From assembly GCA_028554795.2 (NCBI GenBank), contig CM068827.1, positions 75,341,244 to 75,405,243 of the forward strand: a stretch of DNA of 64,000 nt. The letters are read 5' to 3'. Below the pieces are notes generated by a model, which did not search any database, was not told where the DNA came from, and saw only the letters and a list, made by a program, of their open reading frames with translations. The position numbers and the translations under genes are program-made. The stretch comes from Sinohyriopsis cumingii (lineage: Eukaryota; Mollusca; Bivalvia; Unionida; Unionidae). Position 1 is the first letter of the stretch; the number at the start of each line of letters is the position of its first letter. Positions 17,441 to 33,515 of the stretch are shown piece by piece.

Positions 17441-17590
17441 AGCAGCAGAGGGGGCGAACAGACCGAAACTATTTTCATGACAAACCCCTCCGGGAAACTA
17501 TTCCTCGATAGAGGGCTTATTTCGACGAAATAAACCCTTCTATTCAGAATACAGGACAAAAAAAAATGTCCCCGATCCCTCGAAGAGTTT
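17441..17590 (+). repeat. Left terminal inverted repeat, 150 bp
   Basis: Base-for-base identical to the reverse complement of 33366-33515, including a nine-A run, and diverging from 17591 onward. It begins AGCAGCAGAGGGGGC. Terminal repeats of this kind serve as replication origins (protein-primed) and integrase sites in Polintons; that role is family knowledge. Confidence 0.97.
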
Positions 17591-17748
17591 CCAGGGACAA
17601 CCCGTGTTGAGTTTGCACTGCCCAACTTGGGTTACTTTAAATAAATCTGAAACAGTTTCCGACGCGGGGTCATTATTGAAAAATCCATGGGTCGGGTCCA
17701 GCCCCCCCTCTGCTGCTCTACGAAATGAGTTTCCAAGGAAAAACATTT
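17591..17748. other. Left subterminal region with an inverted copy of the element tip
   Basis: A non-coding gap between the repeat and the ATPase stop. At 17704-17717 the string CCCCCTCTGCTGCT repeats the outermost 14 bases of the right terminus in the same orientation (that is, inverted relative to the left tip). A half-module 'gagtttccaagg' follows at 17728-17739. Confidence 0.7.
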
Positions 17749-18420
17749 TTATGTTGCAAATAGTGTATCAAGTCCAATACGGTATCGTGTCCGCGGGTCG
17801 TGTAAATTTATTGTTACAAATCCGTGAGGTTTTCTTTGAGCATGACTGAAGAAATTTTTAAATTTATTTAAATCCATATCGCCACCACACCAGGTTTGAT
17901 GAATATTTCTCAGCGTATGAACATCAACTCCATTGAATATCGCAAGAAGATTACAGTTATCCCTGATTACTTTTGGTATTTGTGTGTAACGTTGAGTAAC
18001 ATAAATGACATCAGTGTTTTTATGACGACCCCGGGAGAATATCCTTGCAGGATTTTTTTGTTTATCCAGCATCACATCATCATACACTACTAGGTTATTT
18101 TTTTCCCCGTCGAGGTCCTCAACGCTGGGAGCTTCTTCGATATCAGTGATAAATTCAACTACTTCCTCACCGTCTTCACTCAGCGCTTTTGCACTCTCAT
18201 TAAAATCTTTTATAACATTATAGCATCGCTGATCGTCTACAGATGGTGCTACCAAATACAGCTTATCCCACTTCATCCACTTCATAATCAGGTTCAGCAA
18301 CAACTGCGTTTTACCCGATCCTGACGGTCCAATGATAATCATTCTGATAGAATTTGGCAACACCGAATTATGCTTGATTGGCTCCCTTCGCCGCGTCGCA
18401 GAAAAGTCTGTAATTTCCAT
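17749..18420 (-). CDS. ATP: Packaging ATPase, FtsK/HerA (A32-like) family
   Basis: A 223-residue P-loop ATPase expected to drive genome packaging into the capsid, as in poxvirus A32 relatives. The Walker A motif GPSGSGKT is at residues 31-38. The Walker B is VVYDD at 111-115, followed by a polar IYVTQRY segment near 139-145 typical of this family. I chose the start MEITDF at 18420: the frame stays open upstream to 18555, but that part would overlap the divergent zinc-ribbon gene and lacks family character. It is the leftmost gene, convergent on the left terminus, and shares a 22-bp divergent promoter region with the next gene. Length is usual for Polinton ATPases. Confidence 0.93.
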   Translation of the reverse strand: MEITDFSATRRREPIKHNSVLPNSIRMIIIGPSGSGKTQLLLNLIMKWMKWDKLYLVAPSVDDQRCYNVIKDFNESAKALSEDGEEVVEFITDIEEAPSVEDLDGEKNNLVVYDDVMLDKQKNPARIFSRGRHKNTDVIYVTQRYTQIPKVIRDNCNLLAIFNGVDVHTLRNIHQTWCGGDMDLNKFKNFFSHAQRKPHGFVTINLHDPRTRYRIGLDTLFAT

Positions 18421-18442
18421 TTGTATACAAAGAATAATAATT
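18421..18442. promoter_or_regulatory. Divergent promoter region, ATPase / zinc-ribbon gene
   Basis: Only 22 AT-rich bases separate the two start codons. The plus-strand start is preceded by 'agaataataatt', resembling the AT-rich boxes next to other starts in the element. Confidence 0.45.
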
Positions 18443-18697
18443 ATGGATCTATATTGTGTGAAGTGTCGGGCACGAACCCCTACGAATGATCTAACAACGG
18501 TTACAACAAAAAATAACAGACTAGCACTTTCTGGTACGTGTACGCGATGTGGCACAAAAAAATTTAAATTTCAAAAAAAAAACGAGGTGGTGACATTGCA
18601 GCCGCCCTCGGACGACTTCCAGGTACCCCTTGGGGAAAGTATCCCGGAGAAAAACATCTCCCAGGATACAATTACTGCGGTCCGGGAACACGACTAG
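18443..18697 (+). CDS. Zinc-ribbon protein, 5' frame of a zinc-ribbon/PLA2 gene
   Basis: As read, this frame gives 84 residues. It starts MDLYCVKC and has two CxxC pairs (C5/C8 and C33/C36), so a small zinc-binding domain of the kind found at the N terminus of Polinton PLA2 proteins. After the ten-A run at 18573-18582 the residues lose family character, while the phospholipase-like domain continues in another frame (18583-18939). The natural product is therefore probably the zinc domain joined to that domain, by slippage on the A run or in an intact relative. Otherwise this copy is broken here. Comparison with other copies of the element would settle which. Confidence 0.7.
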   Translation: MDLYCVKCRARTPTNDLTTVTTKNNRLALSGTCTRCGTKKFKFQKKNEVVTLQPPSDDFQVPLGESIPEKNISQDTITAVREHD

Positions 18698-18939
18698 ATA
18701 TCAGGCTTGACAGCAACGATCAGCCCAAACCCGGCGAGTATCCGATAAACGCTATCGACGCAGCGTGTCACATACATGATATTGCTTATCGAAGTAAAGA
18801 TCTACAAGACAGGCATATCGCGGATGTGAAATTAATTCATGCACTAAGCGCCATAAAAAATAAATCATTTAGGGAGTCACTCGCTAATTGGTTAGTAAGA
18901 TCAGCGATGAAATCTAAATTAGCATTAGGCGCTGGATAA
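18583..18939 (+). CDS. Phospholipase A2-like domain (parvovirus VP1u / adintovirus type), no own start
   Basis: This frame is open from the stop at 18565 to the stop at 18937 and has no ATG before the domain. It shows a calcium-loop signature, YCGPGT, near 18670-18687, and the catalytic His-Asp pair in CHIHDIAY near 18769-18792; this combination defines the PLA2-like fold of parvovirus VP1 unique regions and some adintoviruses. In those viruses the activity helps virions leave endosomes, which is family knowledge. The frame differs from the upstream zinc-ribbon frame, the change falling at the A10 run. Either slippage joins the two or the gene is inactive. The integrase start lies 9 bp downstream. 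Confidence 0.8.
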   Translation, partial: RGGDIAAALGRLPGTPWGKYPGEKHLPGYNYCGPGTRLDIRLDSNDQPKPGEYPINAIDAACHIHDIAYRSKDLQDRHIADVKLIHALSAIKNKSFRESLANWLVRSAMKSKLALGAG

Positions 18940-18948
18940 TTAATAACG

Positions 18949-19965
18949 ATGCAGACAAGTCCAAGGACTTCCAACGCTAGTGTTTCCATGCAAGCGATTT
19001 ATTATTCCCCAATCGGATACTGGAGAGGTAACTCAGCAATTAATAAACTCGCCAACGCGGCATCAGTAACACGCGAGGTTGCCAAAAAATGGCTGTCAAA
19101 ACAAGCAATATGGCAAATCTACCTACCACCACCTCGACAAATCAACTTTGCACATTTTGATGTTAGTGTGCCCAATGAAGTTCATCAGGCTGACATACTA
19201 TTCCTGCCTCATGATACTGTCCGTAGAAAAATATACAAATACGCGCTAACAGTAGTTGATGTTGCCAGTAGATACAAAGAAGCAGAACCGTTAGCGACTA
19301 AAACAGCGTCCGAAGTCGCCTCTGCGTTTAAACGAATTTATCAACGAGGACCTCTAAACTGGCCACGATTATTACAAGTTGATCCTGGCAAGGAATTTCA
19401 GGGCGCGGTGTCATCACTGACAAAGCAGCATAACGTTGTTATACGACGAGGACATACTGAAATTCATCGAGATCAGGCAATTGTTGAGCGATTTAATAGA
19501 ACACTCGCTGAGAGATTATTCGGATACCAGTACGCGAGGGAATTCATTTACGATACGAGATCTCGTGAATGGGTTGCAAGACTGCCAAACGTGATAGCCG
19601 CGCTGAATAATGAAATTACCAGAACAACAAACATGAGACCTGTAAATGCAATCACAAAAAAATATATACCCCGCGTCAGTGAACGCGGACATGTTTCAAC
19701 ACAGCCAGGGACGCTAGCGTCCCCACTGCTGGGTAATGTCACCGTTAGGTATTTATACGAACCAGGCGAACTAGAAGGAGGAAAAAAAAGAGCAACCGAT
19801 CCCACATGGAGTGTTACTACACATAAGATATCCAGCATAACCAGATCAACTGGGAGAAACGCAATCTACAGATTAGATTCGACTGCTCCTCAGCGTGGAT
19901 TCACACGCGAGCAACTTCAGGTGATTCCCACGGATACACAATTACCACCTCGATCACTTAAATAA
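18949..19965 (+). CDS. INT: Polinton integrase (RVE/DDE family)
   Basis: A 338-residue retroviral-type integrase that inserts the element. The catalytic triad is D82 (in HQADILF), D145 (in VDPGKEF) and E180 (in VERFNRT), with the last two 35 positions apart as in DD35E enzymes. The C-terminal 80 residues (GGKKRATDPTWSV to LQVIP) look like a small beta-rich, chromo/SH3-like DNA or chromatin-binding domain. The first 13 residues are encoded by a palindromic module, so translation could instead start at M14 (18988). The 3' end overlaps the convergent polymerase gene by 8 bp. All catalytic residues are present, so the enzyme may be active. Confidence 0.95.
   Translation: MQTSPRTSNASVSMQAIYYSPIGYWRGNSAINKLANAASVTREVAKKWLSKQAIWQIYLPPPRQINFAHFDVSVPNEVHQADILFLPHDTVRRKIYKYALTVVDVASRYKEAEPLATKTASEVASAFKRIYQRGPLNWPRLLQVDPGKEFQGAVSSLTKQHNVVIRRGHTEIHRDQAIVERFNRTLAERLFGYQYAREFIYDTRSREWVARLPNVIAALNNEITRTTNMRPVNAITKKYIPRVSERGHVSTQPGTLASPLLGNVTVRYLYEPGELEGGKKRATDPTWSVTTHKISSITRSTGRNAIYRLDSTAPQRGFTREQLQVIPTDTQLPPRSLK
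18957..18993. repeat. Palindromic modules at the integrase 5' end
   Basis: Two adjoining modules: AAGTCC-AA-GGACTT and a decayed ACGCTAGTGTTTCC. They form codons 3-15 of the longer integrase reading. Confidence 0.8.
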
Positions 19966-22900
19966 CTGCAGCAACACCTCTGCGTCGGTTACACTCAAGA
20001 CAGGTCAACATCACATTTTCACGTGTATGACCGCGATTACTATCTATTCTATCTACGGTAAATTGCCTTGGATTATTTTTCGAATACTGCCACAGCAATA
20101 AACAATTACAACTCGCGCAGTGATTATTCTGCTGTTGTTGTAATTGTATAATAAATGCTTCGTCAAGATCAAACTCTCTGCCATTTTTTTTGTCGCTCTG
20201 TTTGTAACCGGCTAATTTCTTTCTTATTGTATCATCAGCAATTGATCTGTTGATGCTGTCGTTGATAACATCATCTAATACAATTCTTTGTAACTGAGCT
20301 ATCCTTCTTACTCTTGACACGGCTAAATAAACTAAATTTGACCACTCGATGCGATCATCAACAATCCAAACTGTTGTATCTGAAATAGTTAGTCCCTGCG
20401 AACTGTGGATGGTCATAGCGTATCCTAGCGTCCACGGGGATTTGCTCATTTTCAGTGCCTGTTCAACAGCATCAACATCAACTGTGACAATATCATTTAA
20501 TACTAAATTCTGTTTCTCCCCCCCCCCCCCCGACGCAGATACGCGCGTTGGAATATCAACGTCAATATTCTGCAATCGCGTATCAGCTGGTCTATAACAC
20601 AACGGCACTTCCAACATGGGAAATTTCTTCTGATGTAACTGAAATAACTGCTGCTGAAGCGTGTCCCTGACTATCTTTCTACTTGCAACAATTAAATCAT
20701 CTGGTTTCCACGTTTCCCAAAAGTCGCTCAGCGAAGTCTCTGGAATTATTTCACGCATTATCTCACACTGGACTTTATTGGTTTGTAGCCTGATCAACGC
20801 CTTAAACTCTTTCAGCGTTTCATCGAGTGATCTAACATCATTAGTTATTTCCTCATAATAATCTACAAAAGTTTTCAGCCACGTGTGTGGAGATTCACCT
20901 GTAAATGGCGGTGGTTGACCATGATCGCCGCACATCACCACTGCGGTATTTTTCTTTAGCAACCAATCCAGAAACTGTTTTAATGTATCCAACGGCACAG
21001 TGTCTATCTCATCCCAGATTATTTTCTCGGGGATATACTTCGTTCCCATTCGTTCAGGTGTCCACGTGCCGCCGCTGTATTTGAAAAAACTGTGATACGT
21101 ACACGCGTTAACATCCCGTTGTCTCATCTCCCTGGCAAGTCTATGTGTGGGTGTTAGCACAATCATGTCAGAGTTTCTAAATAATTCTATCGCTCGAGTT
21201 GTCTTACCGGAACCACCAGGACCGTTCAGATAAACTGTTTTGTGTCTCACAACAGGATCGTGCACCGGCGGCAGCGAAGTTGTCGTAGAAATTGAAAATT
21301 TCCCAGATATTTCTGCGCCGCGATATTCATCCTCGATTTCAACATCAGCCGATTCACAATATCCATGCAACATTTCATTTTTTATTCTCCATGAACCCCA
21401 CGATGGATCATTCGGTATAACCTTATTTAACGCCGCTAAGTGTTTTTTATCGATATAGAATGAATCCGTTGCAACTCTCACTGCGTCAACGGGAAACCTA
21501 TTAATCATCGACAATAGGTTTATTGATACATAAGCTAGCATCGAAGATCTCAAATGTGTGTACTGAGATGATTCTCCGTCGATATAACTAAAAACAGTCC
21601 CTAGTTTTTCCCCGTTTGACAGAAACACATCTTCGCGGGTACAAAACGTATTATTCGTGGCGGCATCAGCGACAATAAGATCCAATTCGGCCTCGTCCAT
21701 GATTAATCGACTATGATGTAATTTATGATCATACGCTCCACCTTGAGCAAATTTTCCTATTATTCTTCGTCCTAGATCTTTTGCGGTGCTTTCATCAGTT
21801 CGGGGAGCTCTTTCGATGATAGTGTCGATAAACGATTCTGGATATTCTCGGAAATTTTCAATTTCTACGGTGACTTGCGGAGTTGGCAACCAAACTTCGG
21901 TTTGACGACAATAACATATAATCGCTTCACTGACCGTCAGCGACAGCAGTATTCGACTGTCAAGCATGTATCGCAATAACACTATTGGGGCCCATCGCTT
22001 CTCAACGAAATGTCTGCCAAACCAAGCATAACACACAGGATGTAAACCCGTAGCGAATTTAAACGACGACACACAAGCAACCCCGGTCAGGTCAAAATCA
22101 GGCAATGGTCCGTCAACAGCTACTCTTGTCATCGAGTTTGTAATGTGACCAAACCGTTTAAAATACTCACTACATTCTCCGCGCCCAAGGAAACTTCCTG
22201 GATAACACGCCGTCATGTCGACGGATATCATATCGCGGTGATCATACTGGGTATTCCACAAACCACCGTGTCCGTATTCGACACAGCTCTGCTGAATATC
22301 CTCGAGAAAACTCTTCGGGGTTGGTCTCCATGAATTTCGTTCTCGGGCTATATGCGTGACAACACCCGGGACAGTAAAACACTGTGTCAGTAATGTATCA
22401 GTGTTCGTGCTGGAAATGCCAGCATTTCTCACATACTTCTCTGCGAGTTTTTTCATTTCGTGATGTAATGCCGCAGTTCTGTATACCTCCCCGTTGGGTT
22501 TCACAAACTGATCAAACTCTCCCTCGAGGTCACTTCGGAATAACCACACCGACACTGGATCGGTTTTACTTATCTGATAAATAAAATCAAACATGGAAAC
22601 TCTTCGAGTTTCACCACTAGTGGTTCCCCCGCTAGCATTTTCCAATTCCGGATAATACTTTACAACACGGTCTCGAGGAAATATCCTAACCGAGTCAGTC
22701 CAGGCGTGACTGTTATGATCGATAATAGTTATTGGTGCTCCACGGGAATCATATTTACTCTTGTACAATACCTCACCGGTCAACGATGAAACCGTTATAG
22801 GAAATTTTAGTAATCGTTCGAGCTCGGCAACATCATTTATTGACGCTCCTTCATCCACTACTTTTGCCGCCCACGCTGTTATTTTAGTCTGTCTTAGCGG

Positions 22901-23596
22901 TGTTAGGCCGTTTCCTCGCGCGGCATTTTTAAAATGTTCCATTACTCGCTCGGCTACACAATTCAACCCTGGGGATTTTATCCCTGTTGACTCTGTCAAT
23001 GATGACGTCAACGACTCCGACATCTTCATCGGTTTGAGTTTATCAACGCGTGGTTTCTTCATCGGATAAATTCCATAAATGACTGCGGTCACAGGATACG
23101 CTCTGGCATAATACGGTATATCAATCCCAACAAGTACTCCCGGGTTTGAGTCTTTGGTTACGACGACGGTTTTTCCCCGTCGGGCATCAAGAACAGGGTC
23201 TAGTTTGTCTCTGATAATCCATGTTGTTTCACCTGTTTCCGTGTCGTCGACGCCAACGATAAATTTTATCTGAATGAAATATTTTTTATCATCGAGATAC
23301 CTAATTATGTTACGCGCGATTGTATCGTTGATGGTACCATCAATGATGGCATTGGAAGTCTCTGACTTAGAAACGCTCGCGTGAGAAACTCTTTGAGTTT
23401 CGGGGATGATTTTATACGAAGACCACACATGTGCGGCACCATCACGACGAAACTCTTCTTTGGCGTTCTTGATAACACCAATTACCGCTGCGAGTTCTCG
23501 TCGTCGTCGATCAGGGGTTAATCGGTCAAGATCGAATCGACCTCGGGGAAATTGGAGATTTCCAGGTTTTATTCTGGATAGTCTTGAGAAACTCAT
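19958..23596 (-). CDS. POLB: Replication protein: B-family DNA polymerase - SF1 helicase - HNH fusion
   Basis: One 1212-residue frame. The polymerase part (to about 780) has motif A DMTACYP at 460-466, a motif B-like GRRIIGKFAQGG at 609-620 and motif C VATDSFYI at 708-715. Motif C keeps the second Asp (D711) of the usual DTD while the first position is Ala. I see no clear 3'-5' exonuclease motifs. The helicase part has Walker A GPGGSGKT (792-799), Walker B IIWDEID (859-865), motif III GDHGQPPPF (890-898), motif V TIHSSQGLTI (1062-1071) and motif VI AVSRVRR (1092-1098), so Pif1/RecD-like SF1. The C terminus is an HNH-type zinc nuclease (C1160, C1163, D1182, H1190, N1194, C1199, C1202). Residues 69-83 derive from palindromic modules. 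A C14 tract lies in frame at 20518-20531. Confidence 0.9.
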   Translation of the reverse strand: MSFSRLSRIKPGNLQFPRGRFDLDRLTPDRRRRELAAVIGVIKNAKEEFRRDGAAHVWSSYKIIPETQRVSHASVSKSETSNAIIDGTINDTIARNIIRYLDDKKYFIQIKFIVGVDDTETGETTWIIRDKLDPVLDARRGKTVVVTKDSNPGVLVGIDIPYYARAYPVTAVIYGIYPMKKPRVDKLKPMKMSESLTSSLTESTGIKSPGLNCVAERVMEHFKNAARGNGLTPLRQTKITAWAAKVVDEGASINDVAELERLLKFPITVSSLTGEVLYKSKYDSRGAPITIIDHNSHAWTDSVRIFPRDRVVKYYPELENASGGTTSGETRRVSMFDFIYQISKTDPVSVWLFRSDLEGEFDQFVKPNGEVYRTAALHHEMKKLAEKYVRNAGISSTNTDTLLTQCFTVPGVVTHIARERNSWRPTPKSFLEDIQQSCVEYGHGGLWNTQYDHRDMISVDMTACYPGSFLGRGECSEYFKRFGHITNSMTRVAVDGPLPDFDLTGVACVSSFKFATGLHPVCYAWFGRHFVEKRWAPIVLLRYMLDSRILLSLTVSEAIICYCRQTEVWLPTPQVTVEIENFREYPESFIDTIIERAPRTDESTAKDLGRRIIGKFAQGGAYDHKLHHSRLIMDEAELDLIVADAATNNTFCTREDVFLSNGEKLGTVFSYIDGESSQYTHLRSSMLAYVSINLLSMINRFPVDAVRVATDSFYIDKKHLAALNKVIPNDPSWGSWRIKNEMLHGYCESADVEIEDEYRGAEISGKFSISTTTSLPPVHDPVVRHKTVYLNGPGGSGKTTRAIELFRNSDMIVLTPTHRLAREMRQRDVNACTYHSFFKYSGGTWTPERMGTKYIPEKIIWDEIDTVPLDTLKQFLDWLLKKNTAVVMCGDHGQPPPFTGESPHTWLKTFVDYYEEITNDVRSLDETLKEFKALIRLQTNKVQCEIMREIIPETSLSDFWETWKPDDLIVASRKIVRDTLQQQLFQLHQKKFPMLEVPLCYRPADTRLQNIDVDIPTRVSASGGGGEKQNLVLNDIVTVDVDAVEQALKMSKSPWTLGYAMTIHSSQGLTISDTTVWIVDDRIEWSNLVYLAVSRVRRIAQLQRIVLDDVINDSINRSIADDTIRKKLAGYKQSDKKNGREFDLDEAFIIQLQQQQNNHCASCNCLLLWQYSKNNPRQFTVDRIDSNRGHTRENVMLTCLECNRRRGVAAVI
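23354..23403. repeat. Palindromic module array in the polymerase N-terminal region
   Basis: Three consecutive modules: GAAGTC-TCT-GACTT, GAAACGC-TC-GCGT and GAAACTC-TTT-GAGTTTC. They are translated as the Ser-rich stretch around RVSHASVSKSETS. Confidence 0.85.
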
Positions 23597-23643
23597 TATT
23601 ATAATTAAGACAAGTATTTAAATAGACAAAAATATTATATATA
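23597..23643. promoter_or_regulatory. Divergent promoter region, polymerase / Cys-rich gene
   Basis: A 47-bp, almost pure A/T spacer between divergent starts. The plus-strand start is preceded by 'atattatatata', similar to the TTATAATATA boxes before the next two genes. Confidence 0.5.
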
Positions 23644-23994
23644 ATGAACGAAAACTCAAAGAGTTTCTCTGGCGATGCTAGCATCGCTCATGCAAAGCAT
23701 TTCTCTGGTGCGCAAGCGCACTCATGCAAGTGGATCAAACTAAATTCATCAGCGCCGTGTAGCAGACGTTGCAGAGGCGAATACTGTGGACAACATGCTC
23801 AACAGGTCCGCGGCGGTAGTTTAGGACCGATGCCGTGTATCAGATGCGGTGTTGGAGTACGAGGAAAAACGCAATTATGTTCAGCGTGTGGTGGAAAACG
23901 CTATCGAGAACTAAAACGGTATTATGATAAAAAAAACTGTGATAACACTCTCTCGGAGCGTGATTATATAAATAAGTTTTCAGACAAATTATGA
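23644..23994 (+). CDS. Small Cys-rich (zinc-binding) protein, unknown function
   Basis: 116 residues. The N-terminal 28 residues (KSFSGDASIAHAKHFSG region) are translated palindromic modules. The following segment has Cys/His ligands (PCSRRCRGEYCGQH) and then MPCIRCG...LCSACGG, two CxxC knuckles of a zinc ribbon. A basic, helical tail (KRYRELKRYYDKK) could bind nucleic acid. Its position in a plus-strand island next to the polymerase suggests an early or regulatory role, but I recognise no named family. The true domain may begin near residue 29, since the modules look like an insertion. Confidence 0.7.
   Translation: MNENSKSFSGDASIAHAKHFSGAQAHSCKWIKLNSSAPCSRRCRGEYCGQHAQQVRGGSLGPMPCIRCGVGVRGKTQLCSACGGKRYRELKRYYDKKNCDNTLSERDYINKFSDKL
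23650..23730. repeat. Palindromic module array in the Cys-rich gene
   Basis: Four modules in series: GAAAACTC-AAA-GAGTTTC, GCGATGC-TA-GCATCGC, ATGC-AAA-GCAT and GTGCGC-AA-GCGCAC, joined by CTCTGG or CTCATG linkers. Confidence 0.9.
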
Positions 23995-24011
23995 ATTAGA
24001 CAAATGATTTT

Positions 24012-24023
24012 GCTTATAATATA
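24012..24023 (+). promoter_or_regulatory. TTATAATATA box abutting the HNH gene start
   Basis: The string 'gcttataatata' lies directly before ATG 24024. The same box precedes ATG 24693, and similar ones precede 23644 and several minus-strand genes. Confidence 0.45.
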
Positions 24024-24590
24024 ATGAATCAAGAATTCATCCCACAACAAGAATTTGTTGCACATCCAACTATTCCCAATTATGAAGCAAACCACGACGG
24101 AGTAGTAAGACACTGCACGCGAAGACGACCAGTTGGTGTAGTTGATAATAGTGGTTATTCACGATTTACTGCCATGGGTGGAAAAAGATATTTATGCCAT
24201 CGTTTCGTCTATGAATGTCATCATGGACTGATCAAGAAAGGTTTTGTTGTTGATCACATTAATGGTAACATACTTGATAACTCTATAGATAATCTTCGCG
24301 TGGTCACTCAGAGTAAGAACTGCCGGTCGGGTAAAACAGGACGTGGTAAAAAAACTGTAAGAGCTATCAAATCCATGAACGTAACTACCGGCGACGAAAT
24401 AGTATTTCCATCAATAAACGCCGCCAGTAGGTATTTCGATATTTGTCCACCTTCTGTACAGAATGTCGCAGCTGGGATCCGCAAAACAGCATTTTCAAAA
24501 CGACTAAAACAAAAAATCTCATTTTGTTACGTCGACAACTTGGAAGTCAAAGACGCTAGCGTTTCCAAAGACGCAGAAATGCAAACATGA
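24024..24590 (+). CDS. HNH endonuclease with NUMOD-type DNA-binding modules
   Basis: 188 residues. The N terminus (IPNYEANHDGVVRH) resembles NUMOD4. The core has the HNH_3 pattern: CHRFVYECHHG, then VVDHINGNILDNSIDNL and RVVTQSKNC. The C-terminal part (FPSINAASRYFDI and SVQNVAAGI) resembles a NUMOD1 helix-turn-helix. This is the layout of phage and viral homing endonucleases, which cut specific DNA and can move their own gene. It is free-standing here, not inside an intron or intein that I can see. The last 15 residues (VKDASVSKDAEMQT) are encoded by palindromic modules. A second, unrelated HNH domain ends the polymerase fusion next door. Confidence 0.9.
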   Translation: MNQEFIPQQEFVAHPTIPNYEANHDGVVRHCTRRRPVGVVDNSGYSRFTAMGGKRYLCHRFVYECHHGLIKKGFVVDHINGNILDNSIDNLRVVTQSKNCRSGKTGRGKKTVRAIKSMNVTTGDEIVFPSINAASRYFDICPPSVQNVAAGIRKTAFSKRLKQKISFCYVDNLEVKDASVSKDAEMQT

Positions 24591-24666
24591 GAAATGTTTC
24601 ACATTTCTGAGCAATCGTGGAAATCTCTGATTTCTGAGATTGCCATGGAAGTCAATGACTTCTCAG
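24541..24666. repeat. Palindromic module array, HNH gene end and downstream spacer
   Basis: Modules include GACGC-TA-GCGTTTCC, GAAATG-TTT-CACATTTC, GAAATC-TCT-GATTTC and GAAGTC-AAT-GACTTC. The array contains the first copy of the 53-bp direct repeat. Confidence 0.9.
24601..24653 (+). repeat. 53-bp perfect direct repeat, copy 1
   Basis: Identical to 25293-25345 at every base. The two copies bracket the unknown 150-residue gene. Confidence 0.95.
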
Positions 24667-24681
24667 TTAGATAAAAAAAAT

Positions 24682-24692
24682 GGTTATAATAT
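24682..24692 (+). promoter_or_regulatory. TTATAATAT box abutting the 150-residue gene start
   Basis: The string 'tggttataatat' runs directly into ATG 24693. It matches the box before 24024. Confidence 0.45.
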
Positions 24693-25145
24693 ATGAATTA
24701 CGAAAATATAAATATCGTAATTGATGAAATTCAAAAATTGAAGCAGCGGGGTTTTAATATTTTAACAGACGCTGAAACAATTATGTCAGATTTTGAATCC
24801 TTGAATGAGCTATCAGGGAAGAAAAATACTCTTCCTGCGAGATACAGGTTCATTAAAATGCTGCAAAATTGCATTTATAGATCACTTGCCACAGTTACCC
24901 ACGAACAGGTATCTGAATTTATTCCGTTGACGCGTGCAGTTGAAAGTATTCGTCTTACACTATCACACGAGTATGAGACTCGAAAATTAATTAACTCCCG
25001 AGTGAGATTGTTAAAAAGTCAAATAAAGAATTCCGACGCAGAAGTCAAAGGGGCTTCTCTGGAAGTCTCTGACTTCTCATCCACGCTAGTGTTTCCAGAA
25101 GTCCAAGAGACTTCTCAGGAAATGCAAAGCATTTCTCAAGTCTAA
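24693..25145 (+). CDS. Unknown helical protein, 150 residues
   Basis: I do not recognise it. The first 115 residues are predicted mainly helical (repeated I/L spacing, VIDEIQKLKQRGF, RVRLLKSQI) and soluble. The last 35 residues (from about EVKGASLEVSDF) are translated palindromic modules, rich in Ser, Glu and Val. The gene lies between two perfect 53-bp repeats and has its own AT-rich start box, which suggests a cassette acquired by the element. Confidence 0.65.
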   Translation: MNYENINIVIDEIQKLKQRGFNILTDAETIMSDFESLNELSGKKNTLPARYRFIKMLQNCIYRSLATVTHEQVSEFIPLTRAVESIRLTLSHEYETRKLINSRVRLLKSQIKNSDAEVKGASLEVSDFSSTLVFPEVQETSQEMQSISQV

Positions 25146-25210
25146 CGTAAAAACGCTAGCGTTGGAAGTCTTTGACTTAGAAACGCTCGCGTTTCCAGAA
25201 ATGCTTTGAC
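25041..25210. repeat. Palindromic module array at the 3' end of the 150-residue gene
   Basis: At least seven modules, for example GAAGTC-TCT-GACTTC, GAAGTCC-AAG-AGACTTC, GAAATGC-AAA-GCATTTC, GAAGTC-TTT-GACTT and GAAACGC-TC-GCGTTTC. They are followed by a C-run. Confidence 0.9.
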
Positions 25211-25280
25211 CCCCCCCCATTGTGAGTTTCCAAGGGTAAAAAAAAAGTATTATTTTTTTTTTGTCTTTGAAATTCTACTG

Positions 25281-25396
25281 TGGAAATGTGAAACATTTCT
25301 GAGCAATCGTGGAAATCTCTGATTTCTGAGATTGCCATGGAAGTCCAAGGGACTTCTCTGGAAGTCCTTAGATTTCTCAGAACTCTTTGAGTTCCA
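25281..25396. repeat. Palindromic module array between convergent genes
   Basis: Modules GAAATG-TGA-AACATTTC, GAAATC-TCT-GATTTC, GAAGTCC-AAG-GGACTTC and GAACTC-TTT-GAGTTC. The array sits between the convergent 3' ends at 25145 and 25377 and could also act as a bidirectional transcript-end structure (inference). Confidence 0.85.
25293..25345 (+). repeat. 53-bp perfect direct repeat, copy 2
   Basis: Identical to 24601-24653, 692 bp away. Confidence 0.95.
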
Positions 25397-25709
25397 GGAT
25401 TTGCTTGAGTGTTTCAGCATCAATACACGAATGAGAATAGTTCATGATGTGTTCTTGGTCACAAAAAACTGTGATCGTGTGATACTTCTGTAACTGTTCT
25501 TGTTGTGGCCGTGTCAACAAGAAGTCTTCGTTGCCGTACTCGTCAACGACTATTCCGACGGGGAACTCGACAGTGTCAAGTTCCGAATACTGTCCCGAGA
25601 AACTCTTTGAGTTTCCAGAAACGCCAGCGGTTCCAAATGCGGTCCTGATTGCCGCGTTGAGAATTTGTTTGTCATGTACGCGAACTCGGACATGGATATA
25701 CTCGTGCAT
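25377..25709 (-). CDS. Unknown small protein, 110 residues
   Basis: I chose the start MHEYIHVRVRVHDKQ at 25709. The frame stays open upstream to 25802, but that part only translates palindromic modules. The protein is acidic in its second half (VDEYGNEDFLLTRPQQEQL) and ends EILELKEF-like. No family recognised. Codons near residue 40-50 (VSGNSKSFSG) come from another module. It is the last gene of the minus-strand virion block, next to the penton-like gene. Confidence 0.6.
   Translation of the reverse strand: MHEYIHVRVRVHDKQILNAAIRTAFGTAGVSGNSKSFSGQYSELDTVEFPVGIVVDEYGNEDFLLTRPQQEQLQKYHTITVFCDQEHIMNYSHSCIDAETLKQILELKEF
25596..25635. repeat. Palindromic modules inside the 110-residue gene
   Basis: GAAACTC-TTT-GAGTTTC followed by a decayed GAAACGCCAGCGGTTCC, read in frame. 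Confidence 0.8.
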
Positions 25710-25735
25710 TATACACAACTGTAATTTTTTAAATG

Positions 25736-25825
25736 TGGAAATGCTAGCGTGAGAAATGCTTTGCATGAGCGATGCTAGCATCGCCAGAGAAATGCTTTGC
25801 ATTTCCAGAGAAGTCCTAAGACTTC
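25736..25825. repeat. Palindromic module array upstream of the 110-residue gene
   Basis: GAAATGC-TA-GCGT, GAAATGC-TTT-GCAT, GCGATGC-TA-GCATCGC, GAAATGC-TTT-GCATTTC and GAAGTC-CTAA-GACTTC, joined by CCAGAGA linkers. Confidence 0.9.
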
Positions 25826-27297
25826 ACCAACAGGTTTATACTCACAGTCTCGCCACGCAGGTCCAACAAATTCCCCCGTTGGTCGACGAGTTTGAAATTT
25901 ATCGTTGACAACCACGGATTATTACACCGCAGATAGACCACATTGATTGGTTCTTGCACAATCAAAAAACCCGGTGGATCTTTTGGTGTGAACGTATATA
26001 GGATAAACCCCTGTTGGGGTGTAGTATTATCTGATGCGCTGTAGCTACCGTCGATGACGTCACATACAAGATTGACCGCGACCACATCTGTGATCGAAAC
26101 GATCCCGACGGAGATGTGTCTGCCATCGGATGCTGTACTGTTGTCGTGCTTGAGAATAACCGGCTGCGGTTTTGTTCGCGTGTACGCGGCGGAAATATCT
26201 TCGAAAGATTCATCGATGAGATCCTGGACTGATTTTCGTAGCGTGCGCGCGTTATATCCGGGAAGTGTAAATTCTGAAATCTTCTCCACGGGAATACCAA
26301 ATTGGGATGCAAAATTCGATCTTTTTTCGTTTCCGTAATCGCCCTTGAGATTCAGTAGATGCTGAATTATTTTTTGATTTATAATTTCCATCGCGGATGC
26401 GAGTTTGTTTAGTTTTTCTATGACGGTGATAATTTTATCGCGAGAACTGCTTGTAGAAACGCTAGCGTTTCCAGTTCCCGAACTGCTTGCAGTTCCACTT
26501 GTTATATCAGAAATATAATCTTGAAAATATACTCGCAACAGTTCTAGCTGTTGTTTATGTGCTTGTTTGATCGGATTAAAAAAATGAGCTTCTATATCTT
26601 CTGGTTGGTAATCCCGGGATCCATACCCATCAAAAAAAGCTGACCGTAACACATTTACGGGAACTTTAGGTGATGTTGCAAACCAGGCCTCGCCGGATAT
26701 TAATTTATCTGCAAATAATAAATGATCCCCGACGAGGTCGTGTAGTACTTCTTTGTTGGTCTCGAAATCTGATTTCGCGGGTGGTGGTGGACCCGGTTCA
26801 ACCTCGGGTCGTTCTTGTGGCCATCCTAATACGGTTCTGATTGAGCTGTTATAAATATCCACGGCGTATCCCGGTGTTGAGATTTCAATGACCGCAGACA
26901 GCGTTGGTTCGTGCGCGGTCACAGATATTTTGGCTTCCTTGCCGGTGATTCGTTTTATTTGGCGTTGTATCTCATTGTTGATTTCTTCGATCTGATAACT
27001 CCCAGTGGGTAGCGTAATTGTATCCCATTCAAGTTCACGTTGCGGGTCCGCGCTGGGTCTCCCGAACACAAACGAATTATTCGGCTGCAGACCACCAAAT
27101 GATGCCGACCTGATATTGGGCCAGCTGTGATACACACTGAGCTTCGACAACGCGATTTCGCTCACACGAATTGGAGTTGGAAAATTAATACCGAATTGTG
27201 GTGTCGTCGAGGACACTGAGATCATTGTGGTCCTTACCGGTGTTGTGTTTGTGACTATTTGTTGAAGCAGTTCTTGTGGCGTTGCCATCAGTGACAT
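25816..27297 (-). CDS. Penton-like minor capsid protein (candidate)
   Basis: 493 residues. The N-terminal 170 residues look beta-rich (LPTGSYQIEEINNEI, a common Polinton signature, then a VLGWP motif). The C terminus (STINFKLVDQRGNLLDLRG) is also a familiar ending of Polinton minor capsid proteins. I infer the single-jelly-roll vertex (penton) protein; no structure-level check was possible. The middle (about 185-330) is helical and charged. A Ser-rich insert (TSGTASSSGTGNASVSTSS) near 270 contains a palindromic module. The start at 27297 follows 'acaaataaata', the box also seen before the 440-residue gene. It overlaps the upstream membrane-protein gene by 113 bp. Confidence 0.7.
   Translation of the reverse strand: MSLMATPQELLQQIVTNTTPVRTTMISVSSTTPQFGINFPTPIRVSEIALSKLSVYHSWPNIRSASFGGLQPNNSFVFGRPSADPQRELEWDTITLPTGSYQIEEINNEIQRQIKRITGKEAKISVTAHEPTLSAVIEISTPGYAVDIYNSSIRTVLGWPQERPEVEPGPPPPAKSDFETNKEVLHDLVGDHLLFADKLISGEAWFATSPKVPVNVLRSAFFDGYGSRDYQPEDIEAHFFNPIKQAHKQQLELLRVYFQDYISDITSGTASSSGTGNASVSTSSSRDKIITVIEKLNKLASAMEIINQKIIQHLLNLKGDYGNEKRSNFASQFGIPVEKISEFTLPGYNARTLRKSVQDLIDESFEDISAAYTRTKPQPVILKHDNSTASDGRHISVGIVSITDVVAVNLVCDVIDGSYSASDNTTPQQGFILYTFTPKDPPGFLIVQEPINVVYLRCNNPWLSTINFKLVDQRGNLLDLRGETVSINLLVKS
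26456..26496. repeat. Palindromic modules inside the penton-like gene
   Basis: GAAACGC-TA-GCGTTTC followed by GAACTGC-TT-GCAGTTC, in frame as part of a Ser-rich loop. Confidence 0.85.
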
Positions 27298-27775
27298 TAT
27301 TTATTTGTTTAGTTTTCAAATAGTCATTGTACGCATCTGACATTAGTTTGAATTCAGAATCTGATATTGACGCAGCGTCACTGGATTGCACGTCTAACGA
27401 TGATGATATCAGCGATGATAATTTCTGATATGCGGTCGTGGCTGTATTTAATTTTGTCGTGTAATCGTGTAATTTTGTGTTAGCACACGAGGATATTTTT
27501 TTTGCTATGATGCCGAAAACTCCTGCCGCGGTAGTGGTCGTACAAACACAGATCGTGGCAGCGACTACTGCTGTTACCGGAGTGACCGCTGATAGTATTA
27601 CTCCCGCGGATGCAACAACGGCAGATACTGAATAAACCATAACGTCTAACACTGTTATGCGTCTGCGGTATTTTTTTACTTTTTGACTGGTTACTTCGAT
27701 GACAGTTTTTAACTCAGATTGCCACTCACGGACTTGATTGTATCGATATTGTTGAGCATCTGGCGTCGTTGACAT
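27185..27775 (-). CDS. Two-helix membrane protein, conserved Polinton type
   Basis: 196 residues. A basic helical N terminus (QKVKKYRRR) precedes two hydrophobic segments at about 44-62 and 66-90, then KK, a helical region and EFKLMSDAYNDYLKTK. I recall this layout (helix, two membrane spans, EFxL...Y) from unnamed proteins next to capsid genes in other invertebrate Polintons; its role is unknown, possibly membrane interaction. The last 38 residues overlap the penton-like gene in another frame and are low in conserved features. Confidence 0.7.
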   Translation of the reverse strand: MSTTPDAQQYRYNQVREWQSELKTVIEVTSQKVKKYRRRITVLDVMVYSVSAVVASAGVILSAVTPVTAVVAATICVCTTTTAAGVFGIIAKKISSCANTKLHDYTTKLNTATTAYQKLSSLISSSLDVQSSDAASISDSEFKLMSDAYNDYLKTKQINNVTDGNATRTASTNSHKHNTGKDHNDLSVLDDTTIRY

Positions 27776-27803
27776 TTATTTAAAAATCGCTGCCGATTTT
27801 CAA

Positions 27804-29069
27804 TTACGCGGTAACCAATTGAGGCGTTGCAGCGACGAATTCCAAACAAAACCAGTAAGATGTTGCTGTTAAACTATCGTCCTCGGCTTCAAGCATAAAT
27901 GTTTCCTCGGTTCCGCTGTTTAGTATTACAGTGCAAACCCCGGAATACTTATCGGTGGAATGTCTCCAAGGATATGTTGTGAAGATTTCAAATTTAGCGG
28001 CTGAAAACACAGACAACCTGTAAACACCGGTGGCTGTTGCTGTATATTTGATAGTGTTATTTTGTCGTGACCATGTTGCGAATCCCGATGATACCGTGAA
28101 TACGATGTTGGTGATATGCCCGGGAGTAACTCCAGTGGGAACTTTAATCAGACTGGTTTTGTTAACGATCTCAGGAATTCCCGCTACGATATTCTGCTGT
28201 GTTTGTTTGATCGTGTTAATGTTATTTTCTATTATCTGAACTTGATCTGAAAAACTTTTTTCCGTTCTGACTACACCTAACCGGGTATTAATTTTGTTGA
28301 TATCGTTGGCGTTATTAGTAAGATTTGGTATGATTTCAGAAAGTTTCGTGTCGACGACTGGAGGAGTCCCAAAGAACTTATCCACGACCTCATCAGTTTT
28401 TGCGAAGTTTCTTTGGAGTCTTTTAAACCCGTTCACGTGAACATCATACTCTGACCGCAGCGTATTTAGTTTACCGTTGACGATGTCCACGTATTGTTTG
28501 TTTGACGCATCCTGGTCGGATTCGGGATTCGCTAACGCGGTTATTTTGTTGCCGCTCATGCTGAGTTCGCCGGTCATTACGTCGCCGGATTTTGTTACTC
28601 TGTCGATGATTAGGCCAGCAACGAGTTGGTACTGCGCGTCGACGTATTGTTTATTTGCGGCATCTTCGAGACCTTCCGGATTTTTTAGAACGGTTATTTT
28701 GTTGCCGTTCATGCTGAGTTCGCCGGTCATTACGTCGCCGTCTTTTTTCACGCACTTGTCAACACCTTTATCAATACTGTCTTTGATGCTTGCGATTGAT
28801 ATATTCGAGTCCTTGATCCGGCCGCCATCACTAAATGCAACGAAGTTATCCTTGGTAGCTCCAAGAACTCTGCGAATTATATCATTCCACTTAATGTTGC
28901 TCGTTCTTAGTTTTCCTTGCCTGTCTTGAAAAATAGCAACTTCATCTGGGTCAACTCCGGCTAGATTCAAAAGATTTTCGACTTCATCTCGGGTCGCATA
29001 TTTTGAGAGATCAGCATCTGTGCTTGGTTTGACTTTTCTTGTGAAAGGTCTTCCGTAAATATCCACCAT
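27804..29069 (-). CDS. Fibre-like structural protein
   Basis: 421 residues. Two copies of a repeat, GDVMTGELSM.GNKIT...D..NKQYVD, lie at about 111-144 and 162-195. This 'G-x-M-T-G-x-L-x-M-x-G-x-K-I' repeat is typical of trimeric phage tail fibres and viral attachment shafts. A helical or coiled stretch (about 205-300) and a beta-rich C-terminal domain of about 110 residues follow, possibly the receptor-binding head. Its place between protease and membrane protein in the virion block fits a spike. The match is to repeat style, not to a named family, so receptor binding is an inference. Confidence 0.7.
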   Translation of the reverse strand: MVDIYGRPFTRKVKPSTDADLSKYATRDEVENLLNLAGVDPDEVAIFQDRQGKLRTSNIKWNDIIRRVLGATKDNFVAFSDGGRIKDSNISIASIKDSIDKGVDKCVKKDGDVMTGELSMNGNKITVLKNPEGLEDAANKQYVDAQYQLVAGLIIDRVTKSGDVMTGELSMSGNKITALANPESDQDASNKQYVDIVNGKLNTLRSEYDVHVNGFKRLQRNFAKTDEVVDKFFGTPPVVDTKLSEIIPNLTNNANDINKINTRLGVVRTEKSFSDQVQIIENNINTIKQTQQNIVAGIPEIVNKTSLIKVPTGVTPGHITNIVFTVSSGFATWSRQNNTIKYTATATGVYRLSVFSAAKFEIFTTYPWRHSTDKYSGVCTVILNSGTEETFMLEAEDDSLTATSYWFCLEFVAATPQLVTA

Positions 29070-29094
29070 TATTCTTATTGCTGTTTTTTAAATG

Positions 29095-29153
29095 CGTGAG
29101 AAGTCCTTTGGACTTCCAGAAATGCTAAGCATTGGAAACGCTAGCGTTTCTCG
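29095..29153. repeat. Palindromic module array at the protease 3' end
   Basis: GAAGTCC-TTT-GGACTTC, GAAATGC-TA-AGCATT and GGAAACGC-TA-GCGTTTC. They encode the last residues of the protease (NASVSNA). Confidence 0.9.
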
Positions 29154-29613
29154 ATGCGGTATATTCATGCACTACTCGATGCGGAGACGTTGCTGGATTT
29201 CTTGAGATTGCATCAAGAACATTTAAAACCTCGTTTCCGCAAATGGGCGGATCAACTAATGTTTGTGTTGGTAGCGTCGACTGCCACACTGGAACATTAT
29301 AAAATCTGCTGTTGAGAGTGCGAGGCACTCCGCGGACATACTTGAGAAACTCAACTGGCGGTGCTAAACCGTACGAATCAAAATAGATAATTCCACGTGG
29401 ATCGATCGCGTAAGCAACCCAGTGAGTTCCAGGACCGTCTTTGTTGTCGAGATTGATAATGCCAGTTTCTGGATTATTTGGTCGTTCCGGTAATTGATCT
29501 CGCATGAATACACCTCTGAAATGTTTTATACGCAATTTTTTAACAGCATCTAATAAATCAAAATTGCTCATTGGAGACTGACGAAGCGTTTTTAAACCCG
29601 TTTTGGGTACCAT
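29125..29613 (-). CDS. PRO: Maturation protease, adenain-like Cys protease
   Basis: 162 residues. The catalytic residues are H64 (in GTHWVAYAI), D79 (in YFDSYG) and C125 (in PPICGNEV), with Q117 a candidate oxyanion residue; this His-Asp-Cys order is that of adenovirus protease. It should cleave capsid precursor proteins during virion maturation. An alternative start, MSNFDLLDAVKKL, lies at 29571. The longer start overlaps the end of the pX-like gene by 22 bp. The C-terminal tail is derived from palindromic modules. Confidence 0.93.
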   Translation of the reverse strand: MVPKTGLKTLRQSPMSNFDLLDAVKKLRIKHFRGVFMRDQLPERPNNPETGIINLDNKDGPGTHWVAYAIDPRGIIYFDSYGLAPPVEFLKYVRGVPRTLNSRFYNVPVWQSTLPTQTLVDPPICGNEVLNVLDAISRNPATSPHRVVHEYTASRNASVSNA

Positions 29614-30032
29614 GATGCCGGAGTTCCTGGTAGTCTTAGACCGCGTCCCTTTTTTTTGTATCCATTTCCGGTTGCTTTCTTTAGTGCCATTCCAGCTGCG
29701 GTTCCAACTGCACCTAACGCTGCAGCTTTTGCCGCTGCGCCAAGTAATCCTGGAATTTCAGCAGCTAGTATTGGGATGAGCGGAAATATTCCACCGGTTT
29801 TGGTCATGTCCTTGATAGCTGCAGCAGAGAAATCAAGTCGGACACCGGTTTTTGCTGTTAGTGCCTTATTAAGATGTTTAAGCTGAGTATTAGTCAACGA
29901 CAATTTGTTTGGACCACCAGTAATCTGATCTCGTTTTAACGTTATTGATGTCCCGCACGTGCTTGCGTTCTTCGATTGCAATTTCTTCGTTTGACCGGAA
30001 GTCAAGGTGACATTAACGTGACTGTATGACAT
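29592..30032 (-). CDS. pX-like small virion protein (hydrophobic segment plus basic tail)
   Basis: 146 residues. The N terminus resembles a small beta domain. A Leu-rich helix follows (SLTNTQLKHLNKAL), then a long Gly/Ala/Leu hydrophobic segment (about 85-117) and a basic Gly-rich tail (KKKGRGLRLPG). This layout matches the small gene between capsid and protease in other Polintons and adintoviruses, compared there with adenovirus core or membrane-active peptides. Function is not proven. Confidence 0.7.
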   Translation of the reverse strand: MSYSHVNVTLTSGQTKKLQSKNASTCGTSITLKRDQITGGPNKLSLTNTQLKHLNKALTAKTGVRLDFSAAAIKDMTKTGGIFPLIPILAAEIPGLLGAAAKAAALGAVGTAAGMALKKATGNGYKKKGRGLRLPGTPASWYPKRV

Positions 30033-30057
30033 TATATTTCAGAGATTGATCTAATTG

Positions 30058-31512
30058 TTACATGTTTTCTACTGGAGCGTCAATGACTCTCATTCGTCCG
30101 CCAACACCTTCAAGCAGCATTGCTTTATCGGAGAGTATAACCGCGACAGCTCTAAACCCAGCAGGGCCTGCAATTGTAGTTGGAACTAGAGGGGGACCTA
30201 CGACTTGATTTGCATTAACGATTGCCGGGGGAAACACACCGACATTAGCTCGAAAATAAATATCAACGACAGTTTGTTTGGCTAGATCAAGATGTTCCAA
30301 CGAAAAGTAATAAATCGGGTACAGCGTTGTGAAATCCAACTGTGATATTTGCAGACCAGTGTCGACATTCTGATCGCGCCCCATAAATGTCATCAAACGA
30401 TGATACGCGCGTGCAACTTGATTATTCCTAAAACTTATTGTTATGTCTTCGGATGGTTCTTGATGACCGTTTATCCGCAGCGAAACATTAGTGACTCCAA
30501 GATTGTCAAATATCATGTGACTTCTTACTTGCGAACCCGTTCTGCTACTATTTTGAAGTGCGATAAAAATGTGACGCGGTGCTGATACCCCCTGTTGTGA
30601 TGATATATGCCAAGTAAATTGTCCAACTCCAGAACCTTGAATAGAATCTGTTGTTGTTGTTAACCATGATATTAATGATTTGCCGCCTTGGTCCATAAAA
30701 GAGAGAAGTCGTTGTTCCTCAGCGAGCGATGGTGTCATTGTTGGCATCCACAATGCAAGTTTTGATAATATTACCTTACCGTGAAGTGCTTCCGTGTTAG
30801 CAACTGTATCAGCTACTTGATGCCAGAGAGCGTCGTTGTCGTCACCTTTTCGGGTGAGTACAACTGAATGCTTGGCTCCAAAAATAACCCTTCGGACATT
30901 TCTGCAGAGCCCAAAAATGTGAGACAGCGGAATTGCGCATGAAAAATCTCTGCGAGCTCCTGTTAGCATTAATTTACGCGTAGAAAACCCAAGATTATAA
31001 TCAGGATTTGTTGATATTACTGCGGTTGTATCTGCTGCTCCTCCTCCTGCTCTTACAGGACCTATAATAACGTTTCTTTGATCGGGAAATTGACTATTAT
31101 CCTTAGCGAACATCATTGTTGGGCCAGCTGATCTAGTGTAATCATCTGAATATCGTGCTAATCCAAGAATAGTTGTAGCAACGTCAACATTATCCTGAAT
31201 TGTTTCAATCTCCCTCCCATCAATGCTGTATGAAGCATTTTTAAATAGCGCCATGATGCCATTATTAACAAAACCAACTCGGGTATCAATGTTGTATTCG
31301 GTATCATCATTTTTCAAAATAATACCTTCGACTTCAAGAAATGCTTCCGCGGGCAAGAAATATCTACTTGTGTCTTGGACTTGCAATTCAATTCGACCCC
31401 GTTGATTAGGTGTTCGTGCTTCGTAAGAATAATACTGATAATCGCGCACGGATTCGTCTTTGAGTGTTGGTGCGTCCATGTCGAACGCGGGATCAGATAC
31501 ACGTTTGAACAT
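30058..31512 (-). CDS. MCP: Major capsid protein, double jelly-roll
   Basis: 484 residues. It carries the signature order of Polinton capsid proteins: an early beta region FLEVEGIILKND, then VNNGIMALFKNASYSIDGREIE near 80-105, and a second jelly roll ending with PIYYFSLEHLDLA. The protein should form hexon-like capsomers. Length is normal and there is no frame break. It lies between the pVI-like and pX-like genes, as in related elements. Its start follows 'ttatataaa', an AT-rich box. Confidence 0.92.
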   Translation of the reverse strand: MFKRVSDPAFDMDAPTLKDESVRDYQYYSYEARTPNQRGRIELQVQDTSRYFLPAEAFLEVEGIILKNDDTEYNIDTRVGFVNNGIMALFKNASYSIDGREIETIQDNVDVATTILGLARYSDDYTRSAGPTMMFAKDNSQFPDQRNVIIGPVRAGGGAADTTAVISTNPDYNLGFSTRKLMLTGARRDFSCAIPLSHIFGLCRNVRRVIFGAKHSVVLTRKGDDNDALWHQVADTVANTEALHGKVILSKLALWMPTMTPSLAEEQRLLSFMDQGGKSLISWLTTTTDSIQGSGVGQFTWHISSQQGVSAPRHIFIALQNSSRTGSQVRSHMIFDNLGVTNVSLRINGHQEPSEDITISFRNNQVARAYHRLMTFMGRDQNVDTGLQISQLDFTTLYPIYYFSLEHLDLAKQTVVDIYFRANVGVFPPAIVNANQVVGPPLVPTTIAGPAGFRAVAVILSDKAMLLEGVGGRMRVIDAPVENM

Positions 31513-31523
31513 TTTATATAAAA

Positions 31524-31976: not shown

Positions 31977-32009
31977 TTTATTTAATTATTGTTTCTCTAA
32001 CTAAATTTG

Positions 32010-33332: not shown

Positions 33333-33365
33333 TATTTATTTGTCCACGATTTAATTTCCCCGCGA

Positions 33366-33515
33366 AAACTCTTCGAGGGATCGGGGACATTTTTTTTTGT
33401 CCTGTATTCTGAATAGAAGGGTTTATTTCGTCGAAATAAGCCCTCTATCGAGGAATAGTTTCCCGGAGGGGTTTGTCATGAAAATAGTTTCGGTCTGTTC
33501 GCCCCCTCTGCTGCT
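33366..33515 (-). repeat. Right terminal inverted repeat, 150 bp
   Basis: Exact reverse complement of 17441-17590. The element ends ...CTGCTGCT at 33515. Confidence 0.97.

Follow-up and report, generated by a model that had tools for sequence, protein, structure and literature searches.

A hairpin family in Polinton-type elements of Sinohyriopsis cumingii that probably disperses as ultra-short selfish units

Several families of short palindromic DNA units have been described, and they are compared here with the hairpin modules of a Polinton-type element in the bivalve Sinohyriopsis cumingii. The element lies in the stretch of 64,000 nucleotides that was analysed as a whole (the window; assembly GCA_028554795.2, contig CM068827.1, positions 75,341,244 to 75,405,243 of the forward strand), and coordinates below count from its first letter. 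Published cases are cited from excerpts of the papers named. Yeast mitochondrial GC clusters (GC42 and kin) are short palindromic units of 42 nt that occur in many copies, show presence/absence polymorphism, merge and shuffle, and have a putative AG target duplication (PMC4478555). Mitochondrial hairpin-forming repeats also include the Allomyces double-hairpin elements, the sponge RHE and the short palindromic repeats of Volvox (PMC2800124, PMC2670323); the Volvox repeats nest and lie in both orientations (PMC2670323), and the Allomyces elements are reported to be without a target duplication (PMC2800124, PMC2670323). The palindromes of Fusarium are another published case (PMC7218506), and a review (PMC10969869) describes the palindromic elements of Rickettsia as in-frame insertions in protein-coding genes.

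The window hairpins share with the mitochondrial hairpins and GC clusters the occurrence of short self-complementary units in many dispersed copies and their presence/absence polymorphism between close copies. They differ from the GC clusters in that they come in steps of 15–21 nt, reside in nuclear virus-like elements and not in an organelle, are often coding and show no constant target duplication, and from the mitochondrial hairpin elements in that many of the units are translated. Comparisons with other copies in the same genome and with a protein relative reveal in-frame insertion in protein genes, as for the Rickettsia elements; however, those are bacterial, about 150 bp long and encode a conserved peptide, whereas the window units, in their 15–21-nt steps, lie in Polintons and are read in several frames to give several peptides, with no unit of ∼150 bp encoding a conserved peptide. 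Miniature inverted-repeat transposable elements (MITEs) have constant termini and a fixed target duplication. The window hairpins resemble MITEs in being non-autonomous, palindromic and dispersed, but show neither of these two properties, the repeats at the few clean insertion sites ranging from 0 to 6 bp. Among the papers listed on palindromes or hairpins in Polintons or virophages (for virophages 10 of 180), titles and opening parts of abstracts report no such units in Polintons, most subscription journals being outside the scope of this search, and the strings "palindrom" and "hairpin" do not occur in the excerpts of a paper on cryptophyte Polinton-like viruses (PMC12220804).

The hairpins described here are polymorphic as insertions, turn over, nest, preserve reading frames and are present in two different elements. 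We consider it probable that they are a dispersing family of ultra-short selfish units in Polinton-type elements, copied by template switching; within a sample of 44 genomic places they are apparently confined to virus-like elements.

Hairpin modules and their carrier element

Each module consists of a perfect or near-perfect hairpin of 14–17 nt, having a stem of 6–8 bp that usually reads GAA...TTC and a loop of 0–4 nt, together with a linker of 2–5 nt, so that insertions and deletions (indels) between copies are mostly of 18, 36, 15 or 21 nt. The first-pass annotation had listed ten arrays of such modules, all of which exist at the positions it gave; modules at 19708, 22413, 22596–22640 and 23547 had been overlooked. 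It had also proposed a single module design, which holds for the 6–8-bp stems but not for a constant CCAGA/CTCTGG linker, because the linkers vary (TCTG, CAGA, TCAG, TGA, GA and others). The carrier and the hairpins are listed with their strands.

17441..33515, no strand: Polinton-type element with hairpins, ∼16 kb, recognized by inverted repeats, direct repeat and gene content
17441..17590, plus: left terminal inverted repeat, 150 bp, perfect
33366..33515, minus: right terminal inverted repeat, 150 bp, perfect
18957..18993, plus: hairpin pair coding part of the integrase N terminus
19708..19723, plus: palindrome GGGACGCTAGCGTCCC within the integrase gene, seen in the window sequence
22413..22428, minus: single polymerase-gene hairpin, polymorphic among own-genome copies and missing from the polymerase relative P0027
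22596..22640, minus: polymerase-gene array made up of GAAACTCTTCGAGTTTC, ACCACTAGTGGT plus a half module, with 14 alleles across 37 loci
22967..23014, minus: polymerase segment missing from P0027, with just a 5-bp-stem hairpin in the window
23354..23403, minus: three-module polymerase-gene array, none to about six modules across 36 loci
23547..23563, minus: hairpin GGAAATTGGAGATTTCC, polymerase N terminus
23650..23730, plus: module array, N terminus of the cysteine-rich 116-aa protein; other copies have between zero and four modules
24541..24666, plus: module array at and after the end of the HNH gene, 63 nt in common with 25283–25345, one loop inverted
25041..25210, plus: module array, 3' end of a 150-aa open reading frame (ORF), then a poly-C run
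25281..25396, no strand: module array between two convergent genes
25596..25635, minus: module array within the 141-aa ORF
25736..25825, minus: module array, N terminus of the 141-aa ORF; 25751–25792 is an inverted copy of 23664–23705
26456..26496, minus: two modules within the 493-aa capsid-block protein, where relatives have a gap of up to 7 residues
29095..29153, minus: three-module array, 3' end of the putative protease gene

In other copies an 18-nt hairpin, TGGAAGTCAGAGACTTCT, lies at the edge of the polymerase segment 22967–23014. Palindromes at 26763–26777 and 23328–23343 were rejected as modules; they align without gaps with the coding sequence of relatives. A poly-C run at 20519–20532 in the polymerase gene is missing from P0027, and a second, at 25210–25219, lies beside a hairpin array.

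Hairpins with a stem of at least 7, a loop of at most 5 and at least 3 G/C in the arm were counted and compared with 20 dinucleotide shuffles. The element contains 20 (shuffle mean 2.9, maximum 6), the left flank 5 (2.4, maximum 5) and the right flank 7 (3.9, maximum 7), corresponding to 1.24 per kb in the element versus 0.29 and 0.23 in the flanks, whose counts equal their shuffled maxima. The equal density in flanking or shuffled DNA that the first-pass annotation had named as adverse to its proposal is thus not observed. Of the hairpins that start with GAA, 26 belong to the 16-kb element and 3 to the 48 kb of flanking DNA. In a pairing-blind test, all GAA-N9..11-TTC strings were taken and their three inner pairs were then scored; all three pairs are complementary in 23 of the 33 strings of the element (50 shuffles: mean 0.44, maximum 3) and in 3 of 51 strings of the flanks. 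Re-dealing the right arms among the 33 strings gives a mean of 3.4 paired strings and a maximum of 11 in 10,000 trials, versus the 23 observed. The paired strings of the element include eight different inner triplets, indicating that the pairing does not come from one repeated sequence, and the earlier observation that the stems differ yet stay self-complementary is borne out.

The carrier has the terminal inverted repeats and target duplication of a Polinton, with 150-bp repeats and the 5-bp direct repeat ACTTC immediately outside both ends; the duplication of Polintons and Polinton-like viruses is 5–6 bp according to the excerpts of PMC12220804. Pfam matches identify an A32-type ATPase, an rve integrase, an HNH_3 protein and a double-jelly-roll capsid protein, a set that contains the integrase, ATPase and capsid characteristic of Polintons, and the putative protease matches Peptidase_C5 with an E value of 0.0078, too weakly to pass Pfam's cut-off. 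Capsid relatives were found in freshwater mussels (Sinanodonta, Potamilus). The 1212-aa polymerase candidate, encoded by the single gene at 19958–23596, combines a helicase part with polymerase-like motifs (in the first half) and a tail resembling HNH, the motifs and the tail being recognized by eye; only AAA/helicase models match it, and its relatives come from metagenomes and the fungus Diversispora. The element lies on a 149-Mb contig (C4) with non-element DNA on both sides and not in organelle DNA; the flanking DNA includes a tandem array of a 40-bp unit at 38929–39284.

Polymorphism among copies and distribution in the genome

Copies of the element were sought in the 2.9-Gb host assembly with window positions 22200–22560 as the query, giving at least 40 matches that are 82–100% identical (40 were scored of 3191 first-look candidates); in the locus sets the window figures both under its own name and as L014, and so contributes two counts. 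Of 37 loci, 27 carry the module at 22413 and 10 do not; the empty allele is shorter by 18 nt. Four polymerase sites have 9–14 alleles each among 36–37 loci, and the alleles at 22596 (14 in 37 loci), 23354 (12 in 36) and 22967 (14 in 36) span zero modules to arrays of several. At 22596 the same position carries ATG, GTC or ACT stem types in different copies, indicating that whole-module replacement, and not base-by-base compensation, explains much of the stem variety. The suggestion that selection or copying acts on structure is right in outline, with this qualification, and perfect conservation of each stem across copies, also named beforehand as adverse, is not found.

Further comparisons between pairs of copies covered one region at 36 loci and another at 33; indels of 5–80 nt were kept, and those with blocks shorter than 20 nt or with flanks of fewer than 18/20 matches were dropped. 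A hairpin of stem at least 6 is contained in 200 of the 259 distinct indel alleles, whose commonest lengths are 18, 36, 15 and 21 nt. For alleles of 12–27 nt the figure is 79 of 114, versus 2.9 (maximum 7) with shuffled inserts, and 57 of 86 versus 2.0 (maximum 6) once like inserts are collapsed. Eighteen hairpin alleles have one carrier and at least four copies lacking them, 6 fall in the reverse class, and 55 belong to neither. Insertions also occupy fresh sites at a distance from the arrays, at ∼21399 (carrier L035 only, 28 copies without the insert, exact 6-bp junction repeat), ∼21863 (L021 only, 27 copies without it, flank diverged), ∼23950 (L020 only, 7 copies without it, 4-bp junction repeat) and ∼21802 (L021, L022 and L023, 25 copies without the L022 form, 2-bp repeat in L022). 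The comparison for flanking duplications that the first-pass annotation had recommended thus yields insertions with repeats of 6, 4, 2 or 0 bp at the few clean sites, and no constant length.

Within gene bodies the length of all 70 hairpin indel alleles is a multiple of three (polymerase 20, HNH 28, 141-aa ORF 16, capsid-block protein 5, cysteine-rich protein 1), compared with 57 of 87 in terminal arrays, whose bounds were set by us, and 23 of 43 between genes; these are counts of alleles and not of independent events, the HNH set being largely one tandem 18-nt repeat. As the hairpin indels between genes are often not multiples of three, the insertion process itself is not bound to threes, and the proteins act as the filter. 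The 18-nt repeat lies at the N terminus of the HNH gene (24024–24060 in the window, and in other copies), and its number varies between copies. Loops on the sense strand are purine-rich (110 vs 46, or 98 vs 46 without the HNH repeat, the counts not being independent), a bias that may come from milder peptides.

The closest polymerase relative, P0027, is 76% identical and is without eight window segments of at least 3 residues. Five of these contain a hairpin of stem at least 6; the other three comprise one with a 5-bp stem only (GGGATTTTATCCC), one poly-C tract and one of 3 residues with no visible hairpin. The motif [NDH]AS[VI]S occurs in three of the four closest polymerase relatives and in none of 2000 shuffles, which is no more than suggestive for a motif chosen post hoc. 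The peptide MSESLTSS of the polymerase insert at 22967–23014 is also the N terminus of P0047, a Potamilus relative of the 493-aa protein; it is perhaps another type of mobile module, or a chance match. In a scan of a viral contig collection, no relative of either the capsid or the polymerase protein came up, and a lone hairpin in the viral contig L001 was rejected as a module and attributed to chance. One 3-kb genome contig, 43% identical, has seven hairpins of stem at least 6, none of them of the GAA type.

In the assembly, GAAATGCTTTGCATTTC occurs at 736 places, GAAGTCCAAGGGACTTC at 265 and GAAACGCTAGCGTTTC at 670, and the reversed controls at 0 each; 217 non-redundant GAA-type hairpins comprise 31 stems. 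Forty-four places on contigs C1–C7 were inspected (the first 8, every fifth of the first 100, giving 20, and 16 picked by hand), two of which, L005 and L071, are one element. By protein match, 43 of the 44 belong to the Polinton lineage of the window, including diverged subfamilies in which the capsid-block protein is from 63% identical and the 141-aa ORF down to about 30%. The remaining place (L086, extended as L091) is a different element that shows its own turnover of hairpins. It encodes a 1241-aa polymerase with a match to DNA_pol_B_2 (E value 1.4e-21), and the same polymerase site carries different arrays in two copies that are 92–94% identical and in a third at 77%. The 9.4-kb piece contains 18 hairpins of stem at least 7 (shuffle mean 1.5, maximum 5); no capsid, integrase or element ends were identified in it, so that its assignment to the Polintons is likely but unproven. 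The only clear gene that it has in common with the window is that of the cysteine-rich protein, 48% identical, which makes this protein of both elements a candidate helper. This protein of 113–116 aa (L091:8811–9152; window 23644–23994) has no Pfam match and in both elements its gene is divergent from the polymerase gene.

Origin of the hairpins

An inserting family is supported by sites filled in some and empty in other near-identical copies, by different hairpins at one site, by units lying in either orientation or nested, and by hairpins in a second element; the tiny selfish element that the first-pass annotation had listed as one option gains support accordingly. Such units would enter Polinton-type elements beside or inside earlier units, or at fresh sites, in either orientation, and would persist where the protein frame stays intact. 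New copies would arise by microhomology-mediated template switching during replication of the element, in which a nascent strand may jump to a hairpin arm elsewhere, copy the arm and jump back, with the palindromic arms and shared linkers (GAGAA, TCTGG) as putative landing points; stem variety would result from whole-module swaps and occasional arm-to-arm correction. In the window, positions 24591 and 25283 share a copied 63-nt block in which one hairpin loop is inverted and whose ends lie in shared arms, and 25751–25792 is the exact reverse complement of 23664–23705 over 42 nt. Several insertion points have GAGAA, TCTGG or similar in common with module edges, as judged by eye. The variable length of the junction repeats (6, 4, 2, 0) favors template switching over a transposase making fixed cuts.

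Several points weigh against this reading. The analysis turned up neither a trans-acting enzyme nor an intermediate, the case for template switching is built on a handful of junctions, and the exact 4–6-bp repeats at three junctions could equally be target-site duplications. The indel lists are sequence alleles and not independent events, 28 HNH entries being mostly one tandem 18-nt repeat; among the 18 alleles with a single carrier, at least 2 (21802, 22968) represent variant forms of insertions that also occur in other copies; and many indels lie within existing arrays, where unequal exchange between copies could make them. Non-hairpin indels in gene bodies also keep the frame (47 of 48 are multiples of three), indicating that frame keeping reflects protein constraint and nothing special to the hairpins. 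Module-encoded 4-mers show no general excess in 50 homologues (7 in the close polymerases versus 6.7 shuffled), and confinement to virus-like elements rests on 44 of more than 1,600 places, on the first contigs only.

In mobility of the transposase type, minimal non-autonomous units would be cut and pasted by an enzyme that either the host or the element itself supplies, the element's candidates being its rve integrase, its HNH protein and the HNH-like tail of its polymerase; we consider this unlikely. Such mobility is consistent with the exact repeats ACGATG (6 bp), CGAGAA (6 bp) and TCTC (4 bp) that flank three insertions, with the position of the HNH gene amid the arrays, and with the putative target-site duplications of yeast GC clusters in the excerpts of PMC4478555. 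However, the repeat length is not constant, the few clean sites show no common target sequence, and the stem variety is too wide for a sequence-specific enzyme to be pictured easily.

Rather improbable is a by-product of recombination, in which arrays grow, shrink and are swapped through unequal exchange and gene conversion between co-resident copies, but hairpins reach no new sites. Many indels are indeed whole array units, block boundaries fall in shared arms, and whole modules are swapped at 22596, but the hairpin-free sites 21399 and 21863 are filled in one copy and empty in 28 and 27, respectively, and the same hairpins occur in a second, different element. Local palindrome making, that is, fold-back copying and quasi-palindrome correction at replication stalls with no dispersal, would account for short stems, perfect arms and half-changed arms, and the L022 insert resembles a window hairpin about 50 nt away. 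Nevertheless, the same units of 16–17 nt are found again at kilobase distances and at hundreds of loci, indicating that stems are drawn from a shared repertoire, and we regard this alternative as very improbable.

Functional cis-sites under selection (packaging, replication, termination or gene-end processing) are scarcely credible, for although arrays often lie at gene ends and between convergent genes and sense-strand loops are purine-rich, the presence, number and sequence of the modules vary between near-identical copies, in both orientations and many in coding sequence. The packaging or terminator structures proposed earlier are likewise unsupported as sites of fixed position, because positions and numbers differ between copies. 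No Rfam family matches the hairpins at E up to 1, which also counts against cis-sites and led us to reject Rfam structures as an explanation. Two further ideas were set aside: clusters of HSF- or STAT-like sites, whose TTCnnGAA spacings do occur across linkers, would leave the paired inner stems unexplained, and for integron attC-like cassette sites the Pfam matches include no tyrosine recombinase, although no dedicated search was made.

Beyond the probable dispersing family, it is possible, and proposed here tentatively, that the hairpins are hyperparasites that live only in virus-like elements of an animal nucleus, cross element families within one host by means of the elements' replication, diversify by whole-module exchange and rewrite proteins as short linkers. 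For mitochondrial ultra-short palindromic selfish DNA the mode of spread is still unsettled according to excerpts of PMC4478555 and PMC2800124. One nuclear genome with many recent carrier copies, in which the same coding sites are filled or empty, makes the movement of such units directly testable. The hairpins are a steady supply of small in-frame insertions in virus-like proteins, and the family is apparently a parasite of a parasite, living on the Polinton elements of one animal genome.

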